This document shows, piece after piece, positions 39,515-44,762 of a stretch of 64,000 nt of DNA. The stretch is from Methanomassiliicoccales archaeon LGM-RCC1 (GTDB taxonomy: Archaea; Thermoplasmatota; Thermoplasmata; Methanomassiliicoccales; Methanomethylophilaceae). The position numbers and the translations under genes are program-made. The notes below the pieces were generated by a model. It did not search any database and had not been told where the DNA came from. It worked only from the letters and a program-made list of their open reading frames with translations. Location of the stretch: assembly GCA_030168575.1 (NCBI GenBank), contig CP115555.1, positions 496,001 through 560,000 of the forward strand. Direction: 5' to 3'. Positions within the stretch are counted from its first letter, which is position 1. Each line of letters starts with the position of its first letter.

Positions 39515-41026
39515 ATGATGGCAGCAGCAAAAGCAAAGACGGCCGCAGCGAAACCCGCAGCTAAGAAGGCAGCGAAACCCGCAGCAGCCAAGAAGGTAAC
39601 GAAGACTGCAGCAAAGGCGACCAAGCCTGTAGCCAAGAAGGTCGAGGCAAAGATCAGCAAAGAGTACAAGACAGTCTCCCAGATCGCCGGACCTCTGATC
39701 TACGTCAAGAAGACAGAGCCCGTCGGATACAAAGAGATGGTCAACATCAGGCTCTCCGATGGAACGACAAGGAGGGGACAGGTTCTGGACTCCTCGGATG
39801 AGGTCGTCGTCGTCCAGGTGTTCGAGGGAACATCCGGAATCGACAGGGACGCATCCGTCAGGTTCCTCGGCGACACCATGAAGATGCCCGTGTCCAAGGA
39901 CATGCTCGGAAGGATCCTCTCTGGATCCGGACAGCCCCTGGACGGAGGAGCACCCATCGTGCCCGAGAAGGAGCTGGAGATCAACGGAGCCGCTATCAAC
40001 CCGTGGGCAAGGGACTCCCCGTCGGATTTCATCCAGACAGGAATCTCAACCATCGACGGAATGAACACCCTGGTCAGGGGACAGAAGCTTCCTATCTTCT
40101 CCGCATCCGGACTTCCCCACAACGAGATCGCTCTTCAGATCGCTCGTCAGGCAAAGGTCCGCGGAGAGAACGAGGAGTTCGCTGTCGTGTTCATCGCGAT
40201 GGGAATCACCAACGAAGAGAAGCAGATGTTCATGAAGGAGTTCGAGAGGACCGGTGCACTGAAGAACGCAGTGGTCTTCCTGAACCTCGCAGACGACCCC
40301 GCTGTGGAGCGTACCCTGACACCCCGTCTCGGACTCACCACCGCAGAGTACATGGCTTTCGACCTCGGTATGCAGGTGCTGGTCATCATGACCGATATCA
40401 CCAACTACTGTGAGGCTCTCCGTCAGATCGGAGCAGCCCGTGAAGAGGTGCCCGGAAGGCGTGGATACCCCGGTTACATGTACACCGACCTCGCACAGCT
40501 GTACGAGCGTGCAGGAAGGATCAAGGGCAAGAAGGGATCGATCACTCAGATCCCTATCCTTTCGATGCCCGGTGGAGACATCACCCACCCGATCCCCGAC
40601 CTGTCCGGATACATCACCGAGGGACAGATCGTTCTGTCCATGGACCTCCACAGGAACGGTATCTACCCGCCAGTCAACGTTTCATCCTCACTCAGCCGTC
40701 TGATGGGAGGAGGAACCGGAGAGGGAAGGACCCGTGAGGACCACAAGGGAGTCTCCGATCAGCTCTATGCGGCATACGCAGAGGGTAAGGACCTCCGTGG
40801 ACTGGTCGCCATCGTCGGAAAGGACTCGCTGTCCGCAAAGGACAGGAAGCTCCTGGAGTTCGCTGACCTGTTCGAGGACCGCTTCGTCAGGCAGGGAGCC
40901 GAGGAGGACCGTTCCATCGAGCAGACCCTCGACCTCGGTTGGGAGCTGTTCACCGCCCTCGATCTGGACCAGATCACAAGGATCAGCCGTAAGTACATCG
41001 ACAAGTACCTGCCCAAGAAGGCTTGA
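39515..41026 (+). CDS. ahaB: A-type ATP synthase regulatory subunit B with Lys/Ala-rich N-terminal extension
   Basis: About 503 residues from the ATG at 39515, with GGAG seven bases upstream; ATG 39518 is also possible. The family core starts near residue 48 ([16 protein letters not shown]) and includes [14 protein letters not shown] in place of a P-loop, and [20 protein letters not shown]. The core is complete. The first 45 residues are almost only Ala, Lys and Pro in AAK/PAAKK-like repeats, resembling a histone-H1-type tail, and are not part of the usual subunit B. The extension is encoded in frame after the last codons of subunit A. Confidence 0.93.
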
Positions 41027-41031
41027 TATCC

Positions 41032-41652
41032 GTGGGAGCACACGATGTCACCCCCAACCGTTCGGTACTGCTCCAGCTGAAGAGCAGGATCAAACTGACC
41101 CAAGGCGGTCACAAGGTCCTGAAGATGAAGAGAGACGGTCTCATCATCGAGTTCTTCGACATCCTGGAGAAGGCCAGGCAGATGCGTGCCGGCGTCAGCT
41201 CGGATTACGAGTACGCCATGCGCACCATCACCATAGCCCGTGCGGTAGAGGGAGAGGTCGCCGTGAAATCCGCGGCATATGCCCTCAAGGCAGACCCGCA
41301 GGTCAATGTAACCAGCAAGAGCATCATGGGAATGGTCGTTCCCAAGGTGGAGGCGGACCACATCCACGTCCTCATGACTGAGAAGGGATACGGAGTCATC
41401 TCCACCTCGGCCTACATCGAGGCCGCTTCGATCGCATTCGAGAAACTGCTCGAGACGATCGTCCGCGCCGCAGAGGTCGAGACCACCATGAAGAAACTGC
41501 TGGATGAGATCGAGAAGACCAAGAGGAGAGTCAACGCACTCGAGTTCAAGATCATTCCCGAGCTCCAGGAGTCCGAAAGGTTCATCAAATTCAGTCTCGA
41601 AGAGATGGAAAGAGAGAACACCACAAGGCTCAAGCACCTGAAGAAGGCATGA
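41032..41652 (+). CDS. ahaD: A-type ATP synthase subunit D
   Basis: 206 residues from the GTG at 41032. The pattern VTPNRSVLLQLKSRIKLTQGG at the start and KKLLDEIEKTKRRVNALE near the C terminus are hallmarks of the rotor shaft subunit D. It follows subunit B by 5 bp. Confidence 0.93.
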   Translation: MGAHDVTPNRSVLLQLKSRIKLTQGGHKVLKMKRDGLIIEFFDILEKARQMRAGVSSDYEYAMRTITIARAVEGEVAVKSAAYALKADPQVNVTSKSIMGMVVPKVEADHIHVLMTEKGYGVISTSAYIEAASIAFEKLLETIVRAAEVETTMKKLLDEIEKTKRRVNALEFKIIPELQESERFIKFSLEEMERENTTRLKHLKKA

Positions 41653-41665
41653 TGAGGCGAAGATC

Positions 41666-41812
41666 ATGAAATCGCTGGAGGAGCGCTACGAGGAGATAAC
41701 GGAGGACCCGAAGAAGTTCAAGAAGGCCTTCAATATCGTCTGGATAGTCGCTTACAGCATGCTCATGATCGGAGTCTTCCTCATCATCTGGGTACTGTAC
41801 ACGGGCCAGTAA
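41666..41812 (+). CDS. small membrane protein at the end of the ATP synthase operon
   Basis: 48 residues: a charged N-terminal helix (LEERYEEITEDPKKFKKAF) and one transmembrane helix (IVWIVAYSMLMIGVFLIIWV). GAGGCGAAG precedes the ATG, which lies 13 bp after subunit D, and the gene ends with TAA before a strong hairpin. It is therefore part of the operon. It could be an accessory subunit or assembly factor, or an unrelated membrane protein that uses the operon promoter. Confidence 0.6.
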   Translation: MKSLEERYEEITEDPKKFKKAFNIVWIVAYSMLMIGVFLIIWVLYTGQ

Positions 41813-41835
41813 ACACCTTTATCAATCATCTTCCA

Positions 41836-41854
41836 GCCGGCCCGGAGGGCCGGC
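41836..41854 (+). terminator. hairpin after the ATP synthase operon
   Basis: GCCGGCCC and GGGCCGGC form a perfect 8-bp GC stem with a GGA loop, 24 bp after the last stop codon. No T-run follows directly, so termination or 3'-end protection are both possible. Confidence 0.6.
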
Positions 41855-41955
41855 ACCCCTTGCTATTCAAAGGATCCTATTCTACTACAGTAAAACAATG
41901 GGAAAAATCACTTTGAATCTCTGGAAAACATTTCATAGTTGTATTGAAAAAAGTA

Positions 41956-41977
41956 TTCCCCCGTTTTTACGGGGGAA
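41956..41977 (+). terminator. second hairpin, downstream of the ATP synthase operon
   Basis: TTCCCCCGT and ACGGGGGAA form a perfect 9-bp stem with a TTTT loop. It follows the first hairpin by about 100 bp and is preceded by an AT-rich segment. It is a plausible back-up terminator. Confidence 0.5.
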
Positions 41978-42197
41978 ATATGTTTACTCGACCCATCTTG
42001 ATATGGCTTCAAGAATCTGATCCTGATAATTGTATATGTCACGAACAGAGTCTATTCTTATCGAATTTAACAGTAGAAACAGAATAATACGGAGCAGGGC
42101 CTAACAGGTGAAACCCGTTCTCCCTCCTCCATATAGTCATTCCATCACACGATATATATTTGTGATGTTTCTAATCAAGATTTAGAAGATTGACAAA

Positions 42198-42977
42198 ATG
42201 GAGTGTAACATCGTTTTCATGGATGAATCCGGCAGTGGTTCAAAGAGTAAAGGAAAGGTCAATTATTGGGTGACTGTTGGAGTATTATCAAGTTTGGACA
42301 ATCATTAGAAAATAACGGAAGAATTACACGCTATAACAAAGAAAAATATGAGACTCTATAATAGAGAACTGAAAGGGACGGACATTTCTAGGAATCATTT
42401 AAATCCTGGAGTTGACAAGATGTCTGTTGCTAAAGATATTTCTGATCTGATATTAAGGTACAATATGACTGTTTTTGTGACCGCTTCTAATATGTCACCT
42501 GCGATAAAGAGATTAGAAAAAAAGTTTACAGCTTCCAATGTTAAAAATGGATTGCAAGCTAAGGATATTGCCAGGGAGTTGCTATTAGAACGCATATCGA
42601 TTTCTCTAAATTATAAAAGAACTAAAGACATGCTTAACTTGCTGGTCTGGGATCTTTCTGATAATAATGAATTAGCTGATTTTAGTGCTATAACGGGATC
42701 ATATACGAATCCGCATGATCATAAGAAGCTCAACTGCACCATTGTACCACATATTTTAGGTGGCTTGTCACACGATTGGGCAGAATTACAGATTGCAGAT
42801 TTAATTTCCAATTATGCATTGAATTATGTGGCAGATGGAATTTATATCGATGCCGACAGGGAAAAAAGTGAAGCATTCAAAAAATACCTGTATCCTGTAT
42901 TGCATTGCGACAAAAATGGAAAGATTGAAGGCGTAGGTTTTAAAAAGATTTTTAATGAGTTAGAACGACGCGATTGA
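42198..42977 (+). CDS. DUF3800 protein, short form, with an in-frame TAG
   Basis: The ATG at 42198 opens with NIVFMDESGSG, the DESG motif of DUF3800. The frame meets TAG at 42306-42308 (codon 37) and then continues, unbroken, for 222 codons that contain ELKGTD, LLVWD and AELQIADLISNYALNYVADG, the remaining motifs of the family. The DESG and ELKG motifs belong to one domain, so both halves must be joined to make the protein. The frame ends in TGA. AT-rich DNA unlike the neighbouring operons points to lateral transfer. Readthrough of TAG gives 259 residues; a nonsense mutation is the alternative. Confidence 0.7.
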
Positions 42978-43163
42978 AGTCGTCAAATAACAAGGATGGT
43001 GGGAGAAGTGATCCCCCCCCCCCTTCAAAAGCCATACTTATCTATTATACAGTTTGTTAATACTATTCAAGAGTAAAAATCATAAATAGTGTTACTCAAA
43101 AATTAATTATTAATAATAAGGATGTATGGGATTCCTATCAGTATTATCGAACGAGGGTCTCGA
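42978..43163. other. intergenic region before the cfb operon, with C11 tract
   Basis: The gap contains an 11-base C tract (43013-43023), which is unusual in this AT-rich stretch and a possible slippage site, and then AT-rich sequence (ATAAATAG near 43083, TTAATTATTAATAATAAGG before 43122) that probably carries the promoter of the cfb operon. Confidence 0.4.
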
Positions 43164-43949
43164 ATGTCCAAAGGAATCATCATAGTCGGATACGGAACAA
43201 GGAAAGGAAATCTAGAGGAGGTCCTGGAAACACAGGCACGCAGGCTCAGGTGCAGGGGATGGAAGCACGTGGGCATCGCTTATTTCAGGGTAAGCTCCCC
43301 CACGATCCCCGAGGCGCTGGAGGCCATGGTCGACGAAGGCGTCGATCAGATCGTCGTCCTCCCCTACTACATCGCGGAGGGAACACTCACAAGGGAGCTT
43401 ATACCCGAGAAGTTCGGCATGCAGGCGGACATGGCGGAGGTCCAGTGCAAGGGCAAGACCGTCACCATCCAGATCGCTCCCGCATTCGACGTGAGCTTCT
43501 CCCTCACCGACATCATCTGCGACAAGATCGCAGATGTGAACGGAGACCAGGATTGCGGAATCCTCGTCCTCGGACACGGAACCAGGTACAAGTCCCTCAC
43601 GAACATGCGCGTCGTGAAGCTCAACGCAGAGAGGCTCAGAGAGAGGGGCTATTCCCATGCTCTGCACTCGTTCAACGAGTTCTGCGAGCCTTCCATCAAG
43701 GATGTCCTCAGTGATCTGGAGAAGCAGGGAGTCAAGAGGATCATCGCGATCCCCCTGTTCATCGCAATGGGCCTGCACCTCGGAGAGGAGATCCCCGAGC
43801 AGCTGGGAATCCCTCCCTACAGCGAAGGCGGAGACATCACCGTCAACGGAAGGACAATATCGTTGTCCTACACCCGCCCGGTAGAGGCGGACAACCGTCT
43901 CACCGACCTGCTCGACAGGCAGGCAAGGCATTATCTCGGCATTCAGTGA
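43164..43949 (+). CDS. cfbA: sirohydrochlorin nickelochelatase CfbA, two-domain form
   Basis: 261 residues from the ATG at 43164. Two CbiX/CfbA-like halves are visible. The second keeps the metal-chelating His residues: VLGHGTRYKS (near residue 137) and FIAMGLHLGEE (near 203). In the first, the matching sites read VGYGTRKGN and YYIAEGTLT, without His. Archaeal CfbA is usually about 130 residues and works as a homodimer, so this is a fused or duplicated form with one active half. It inserts Ni into sirohydrochlorin, the first step to F430, and heads the cfb operon. Confidence 0.85.
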   Translation: MSKGIIIVGYGTRKGNLEEVLETQARRLRCRGWKHVGIAYFRVSSPTIPEALEAMVDEGVDQIVVLPYYIAEGTLTRELIPEKFGMQADMAEVQCKGKTVTIQIAPAFDVSFSLTDIICDKIADVNGDQDCGILVLGHGTRYKSLTNMRVVKLNAERLRERGYSHALHSFNEFCEPSIKDVLSDLEKQGVKRIIAIPLFIAMGLHLGEEIPEQLGIPPYSEGGDITVNGRTISLSYTRPVEADNRLTDLLDRQARHYLGIQ

Positions 43950-43961
43950 TAAGGGTGGGAT

Positions 43962-44762
43962 ATGCGCAGGATAGCGATCTACGGTAAGGGTGGCATAGGC
44001 AAATCCACGACCTCATCCAACATCTCCGATGCCCTGGCGGAGTCAGGGCTCAGAGTGATGCAGATCGGATGCGATCCCAAGGCCGATTCGACCAGCATGA
44101 TCGTAGGAGGCAGGATCCCCACCGTATTGGACATCATGCGCGACAAACCTGACAGGGAACTGGACGACATGGTCCATGTAGGTTCCCACGGAGTGCTCTG
44201 CGTCGAATGCGGGGGCCCCCGCCCCGGCACGGGATGCGCCGGAAGGGGAATCATAGCCGCGTTCCAAGAGCTGGACCGTCTCGACGCCATGGACGTCTAC
44301 AAACCCGATGTCATAATCTATGACGTTCTAGGAGACGTCGTGTGCGGAGGATTCGCCATGCCCATACGCAACGGCTACGCCAGGGATGTTTTCGTCGTCA
44401 CATCCGGCGAGAGGATGTCCCTGTATGCCGCAAGGAACATCGCCACAGCGGTCAACGATTTCAAGCAGGACGGCTACGCCAGGTTCGGCGGGCTGATCCA
44501 GAACTCAAGGGGAGTGGAGGACGAGGACCGTCTCGTATTGGAAGCAGCCAAGGAGATCGGTTCAGAGATGATCTTCAGGCTCCCCAGGTCCCCCACAGTG
44601 CAACAGTGCGAATCGAAGGATTCCACGGTTGTCTCGGGAGCACCGGATTCCGATATGGCCAATCTCTACCGCAAGCTGTCAAAGGTACTGCTCGACAGGT
44701 CCGAGGATATCTCCGGCGGAATGAAGATCGACGATTATTCGGGATGCGACGGATGCAATTGA
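43962..44762 (+). CDS. cfbC: Ni-sirohydrochlorin a,c-diamide reductive cyclase, NifH-like subunit CfbC
   Basis: 266 residues. Walker [14 protein letters not shown] at the N terminus, and two [4Fe-4S] Cys in GTGCAGRGI and [13 protein letters not shown], make it a NifH-type ATP-dependent reductase. It lies 12 bp after cfbA and before cfbE and cfbD. Context identifies it as CfbC, which passes electrons to CfbD for F430 ring reduction, and not nitrogenase reductase: no nif genes are present. Confidence 0.93.

Follow-up and report, generated by a model that had tools for sequence, protein, structure and literature searches.

The window analyzed here, a stretch of 64,000 nucleotides from the Methanomassiliicoccales archaeon LGM-RCC1, carries on its forward strand a gene for a DUF3800 protein whose reading frame contains a TAG codon, and a conserved hairpin RNA motif is found immediately upstream of this gene. 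The features of the locus are as follows:

42088..42133, + strand: conserved hairpin RNA motif, 46 nt, 64 bases upstream of the start codon; it recurs upstream of homologs and shows covariation
42198..42977, + strand: DUF3800 gene, encoding 259 residues, codon 37 (TAG) included; terminal TGA at 42975-42977
42222..42233, + strand: DESG motif (D9, E10), supplying the part of the putative RNase H-like active site that precedes the TAG; invariant in eight aligned proteins, at the end of strand 1
42306..42308, + strand: in-frame TAG, codon 37, predicted pyrrolysine; shared with the genomes G060 and G013
42651..42653, + strand: codon of D152 (WDLS motif), a putative active-site carboxylate after the TAG; invariant in eight aligned proteins, at the end of strand 145-153
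42798..42800, + strand: codon of D201 (QIAD motif), a putative active-site carboxylate after the TAG; invariant in eight aligned proteins, in helix 195-212

Translation of the frame 42198-42977 (+) yields MECNIVFMDESG...LDNH*KITEEL...ELKG...QIAD...ERRD* (asterisks denote stop codons), which bears out the original prediction that the DESG, ELKG, and QIAD motifs lie in one frame with the TAG between them. This TAG is the sole internal stop of the frame; the five other frames of the same 780 bases, a stretch of 35% G+C, contain between 10 and 28 stops each; chance is therefore no explanation for a frame with just one. When the TAG is read as lysine, the protein matches the Pfam family DUF3800 (PF12686) over residues 5-205 with E=8.8e-6 and a score of 26.9 bits (the gathering cut-off of this family is 21 bits), while the product starting from the next ATG (42348) alone gives no DUF3800 match in Pfam. 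The TAG sits inside the conserved domain, and the N-terminal DESG and the C-terminal QIAD-type motifs, which the alignment shows to be invariant or nearly so, come together in one protein only when it is read. The earlier claim that the family needs both halves agrees with this dependence of the Pfam match on read-through, and with the putative active-site residues, which are contributed by both halves. Standard annotation would overlook such a gene or label it as broken.

With respect to its surroundings, the gene had been described as an AT-rich insert between two conserved operons. The first part of this description stands, as the frame has 35% G+C versus 57% in its neighbours, while the second part could be substantiated only partially. 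The side of the locus with the V-ATPase genes is conserved in relatives up to about 41754-41869, but the downstream operon of the window was not seen beside the V-ATPase end in those stretches of relatives that were read; hence, the DUF3800 gene is located at a synteny break that is not a proven clean insertion. A clean-insertion test was attempted in the relatives examined, and no empty site could be drawn. It should also be noted that a run of C residues (43014-43022) is present just past the gene, at which the G013 contig ends and where the G060 sequence has N; it is likely an assembly-breaking or phase-variable tract. G060 differs from the window by approximately 0.3% over 40698-43023 and by approximately 2% over 43025-44456, a step in divergence that suggests recombination near the DUF3800 gene.

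The genome from which the window originates (1.66 Mb, a single contig) encodes a PylS protein scoring above its family cut-off and a tRNA-Pyl with the anticodon CUA. The gene for this tRNA clusters with pylB, pylC, pylD, and two mtmB genes, each of the latter with an in-frame TAG; apart from tRNA-Pyl and PylS, these gene names are presumptive, as they were recognised by eye from the sequences. The layout of this cluster and the methanogenesis genes of the organism, a gut methanogen, fit a place in the Methanomethylophilaceae. The use of TAG was determined on a sample of 288 kb out of the 1.66-Mb genome. Among the 220 gene models of this sample, 186 terminate with TGA, 27 with TAA, and seven with TAG, and at least four of these seven keep coding in frame beyond the TAG: the two mtmB genes, an IS110-type transposase, and a TetR-type regulator. 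The transposase (L098:13086-14120) has its in-frame TAG between two Pfam domains and is likely another pyrrolysine protein of this genome; in the regulator (L093:12263-12832), the TAG separates the DNA-binding from the ligand-binding part, and Pfam domains are found on both sides of it, the C-terminal one below its cut-off. True TAG terminators thus amount to about 1% of the terminators in the 288-kb sample, similar to the published value of 1.6% for 'Ca. M. alvus', a relative (PMC4153887). In effect, TAG functions here as a sense codon. Some archaea have recently been reported to read all of their TAG codons as pyrrolysine, a report that we do not count as evidence here.

The original prediction had left two outcomes, a TAG that is read through or a dead gene, and the former is favoured by the encoded pyrrolysine apparatus and by the near-absence of TAG as a terminator. 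Further backing is provided by the in-frame TAGs in other genes of the genome and by the conservation of the protein on either side of the codon. Hence, the DUF3800 gene is most likely alive, with its TAG read as pyrrolysine.

The same TAG is common to three genomes: that of the window, that of G060, a member of the same species, and that of G013, which belongs to another species of the genus. G060 and G013 are both about 99.7% identical to the window over the shared stretch 40698-43023, and their differences within the gene amount to two synonymous changes, one T-to-I replacement, and the loss of the terminal TGA; given this near-identity, and with differences in the gene too few for a test, the sharing of the TAG says little about selection. 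Four homologs with a sense codon (G023, G103, G129, G101) are 45-48% identical to the window's protein and align without gaps across codon 37, at which D, G, G, and G are found, respectively. The alignment that had been proposed as a check on the TAG column therefore identifies it as variable and not as lysine-rich. Among the columns that are invariant in these four proteins, the window's copy retains 10 of the 12 before the TAG and 63 of the 73 after it; judged by this count, the two parts are equally conserved. These sequences are best explained by a read-through residue at a position that varies.

The DUF3800 gene is accessory, patchily distributed, and missing from most relatives. A copy in a more distant ortholog-bearing genome (G110) has its TAG elsewhere, in place of a conserved Trp, and is frameshifted within a seven-A run; this copy is broken or badly assembled. 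Another DUF3800 gene of the order (G142, L032) likewise has a TAG within a frame of 225 codons that is open in all other respects. Two further DUF3800 matches in the window's own genome (G000:C1:222420-225550; L054) belong to another subtype, lie close together, and are free of in-frame stops. DUF3800 candidates with a similar match length (G142:C19, G044:C36, G056, G062, G093) gave no match to the subtype profile and were set aside, and no relative of the DUF3800 protein was found in the viral, phage, and plasmid collections.

These comparisons bear on the alternative that the gene is a recent pseudogene, in which translation ends after 36 residues and the remainder of the frame is too young to have decayed. 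Further inactivating changes in other strains had been named in advance as a sign of a dead gene, and they were found in a weak form: the two close relatives lack the terminal TGA and have a short tail, and the more distant G110 copy is broken or badly assembled. Together with the nonsense codon itself and the AT-rich, accessory character of a gene absent from most relatives, this would be in keeping with decay. However, the lesion is a TAG in an organism that decodes TAG, the 259 codons are devoid of frameshifts, TAA, and TGA, and the sequence is constrained equally before and after the codon; we therefore regard a pseudogene as unlikely. Quite improbable, in our view, is a regulatory or catalytic role of the pyrrolysine residue, through which the nuclease would depend on the pyrrolysine supply or use the residue in its chemistry. 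Such a role would be consistent with the proximity of the pyl genes to mtmB, with the all-or-none product that an early TAG would give, and with the retention of the TAG in three genomes, but the site is variable and occupied by ordinary residues in all four sense-codon homologs, and unrelated genes carry in-frame TAGs as well. Furthermore, the low usage of TAG as a terminator argues for constitutive decoding (PMC4153887).

Structural considerations likewise favour a full-length product. An AlphaFold2 model of the read-through protein, built on an alignment of eight sequences, has a pLDDT of 78.9 and a pTM of 0.84. While solved structures gave no match by sequence, the best solved matches of the model are RNase HII/H2 enzymes (Foldseek E 1e-5; Z 10-11 over approximately 170 residues), and by these values the predicted model is RNase H-like in its fold, as has been described for DUF3800 (PMC10910872). 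By analogy with RNase HII, we infer that D9/E10 and D152/D201 form the putative active site. Codon 37 corresponds in the model to the first turn of helix 33-50, which follows strand 2. A restart at the in-frame ATG 42348 behind the TAG, giving a 209-residue protein without the DESG half, can hardly be credited, as none of the homologs found starts at that site; strands 1 and 2 and the invariant D9/E10 would be missing from the product, which is not recognised as DUF3800.

The segment 42088-42133 folds as a single hairpin. Across 20 matches, 92.6% of the alignment cells pair and nine of the 14 base pairs have changed on both sides, figures that are favoured by the fitting of the alignment to the model; no shuffle attains these two values, and in slid controls pairing drops to 47-62%. 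Matches to the hairpin occur in 21 of the 147 genomes of the order, 18 of them strong; about 18 Methanomethylophilaceae genomes have a single copy each (L067-L084). A search of Rfam gave no match to it at E up to 1 (L007, L008, L009), and the viral collection contains no exact match to the RNA core. The hairpin is apparently undescribed and the more original part of our findings. All eight genomes in which this DUF3800 subtype was found carry the RNA upstream (six independent loci; one of the genes is broken), two of the eight having been found via the RNA itself, while the other ten strong RNA matches have no relative of the DUF3800 gene in the approximately 1.5 kb flanks that were read. A DUF3800 protein from a distant family within the class (G437, L132) shares 37% identity with that of the window; roughly 15 bases past the point where its matched frame ends, a weaker hairpin match is found (E 2.9e-5 in 96 kb). 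The link between the RNA and DUF3800 thus recurs, yet the RNA also stands alone in different neighbourhoods. The hairpin is a probable partner or regulator of the DUF3800 protein. We rate as rather unlikely the broader reading that hairpin and gene constitute an undescribed archaeal RNA-protein system, with an RNase HII-like nuclease that is translated in this lineage only when pyrrolysine is available.

The explanation that we favour with good confidence is that of a functional DUF3800 gene whose codon 37 TAG is decoded as a tolerated pyrrolysine, and whose RNase HII-like product belongs to a module with an RNA. Starting from the reading frame and its homology, the pyrrolysine genes, the resemblance of the modelled fold to RNase HII, and the covariation of the RNA, we infer translation, catalysis, and the RNA partnership in the following way. 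The TAG most likely goes back to a point mutation, which struck a variable site within the first turn of the helix that follows strand 2. The tRNA-Pyl(CUA), charged by PylS, would decode it as pyrrolysine, and the codon would persist since TAG is in effect sense here, so that the residue would be tolerated and dispensable for catalysis. The full-length product would be an RNase HII-like nuclease uniting D9/E10, encoded ahead of the TAG, with D152/D201, encoded behind it, and a stop at the TAG would leave no enzyme. Gene and upstream hairpin may together form a DUF3800-RNA module, in which the RNA could serve as a cofactor, a substrate, or a cis-regulator. Its cellular role might be in defence, in RNA processing, or as a mobile module.

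When viewed against known systems, the closest structural counterparts of the modelled protein are RNase HII and RNase H2, with which it has in common the D-E pair on strand 1 and later invariant Asp residues; this likeness stems from a predicted model, identity is only about 8-14%, and the helical elements differ. As in DUF3800 proteins (PF12686) in general, a DESG start, a QIAD-type motif near the end, a score above the gathering cut-off, and an RNase H-like fold (PMC10910872) are found; unlike the typical members of this family, the protein represents a low-scoring subtype with longer inserts and has a TAG at codon 37. The proximity of a structured conserved RNA to the gene resembles the DUF3800-associated RNA motifs of Rfam (DUF3800-I, DUF3800-IX, and others), from which the archaeal hairpin is set apart by its length of 46 nt, by its lack of a covariance-model match to them, and by its occurrence without the gene. 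Placed beside this DUF3800 subtype, the hairpin makes a possible RNA partnership of DUF3800 proteins testable in a small archaeal system.

Pyrrolysine in proteins of Methanomassiliicoccales other than methyltransferases is already documented in the literature (PMC4153887, PMC5011839): 16 such proteins beyond the methyltransferases, Cas1 included, have been predicted for 'Ca. M. alvus' (PMC4153887), and 46 genes with an in-frame TAG have been listed for ISO4-H5 (PMC5011839). The DUF3800 gene resembles these cases in its single in-frame TAG, in its sense-codon homologs, and in a genome that combines a Pyl cassette with few TAG terminators. It differs from the 'Ca. M. alvus' set in that a DUF3800 protein is absent from the published table of that organism (PMC4153887), while no Cas1 was found in the window's genome, which appears to be that of another species. 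An RNase H-like accessory protein thereby joins the list of predicted pyrrolysine proteins, and it provides an example of a patchily distributed gene that would have gained and kept a TAG in a genome in which this codon is in effect sense.
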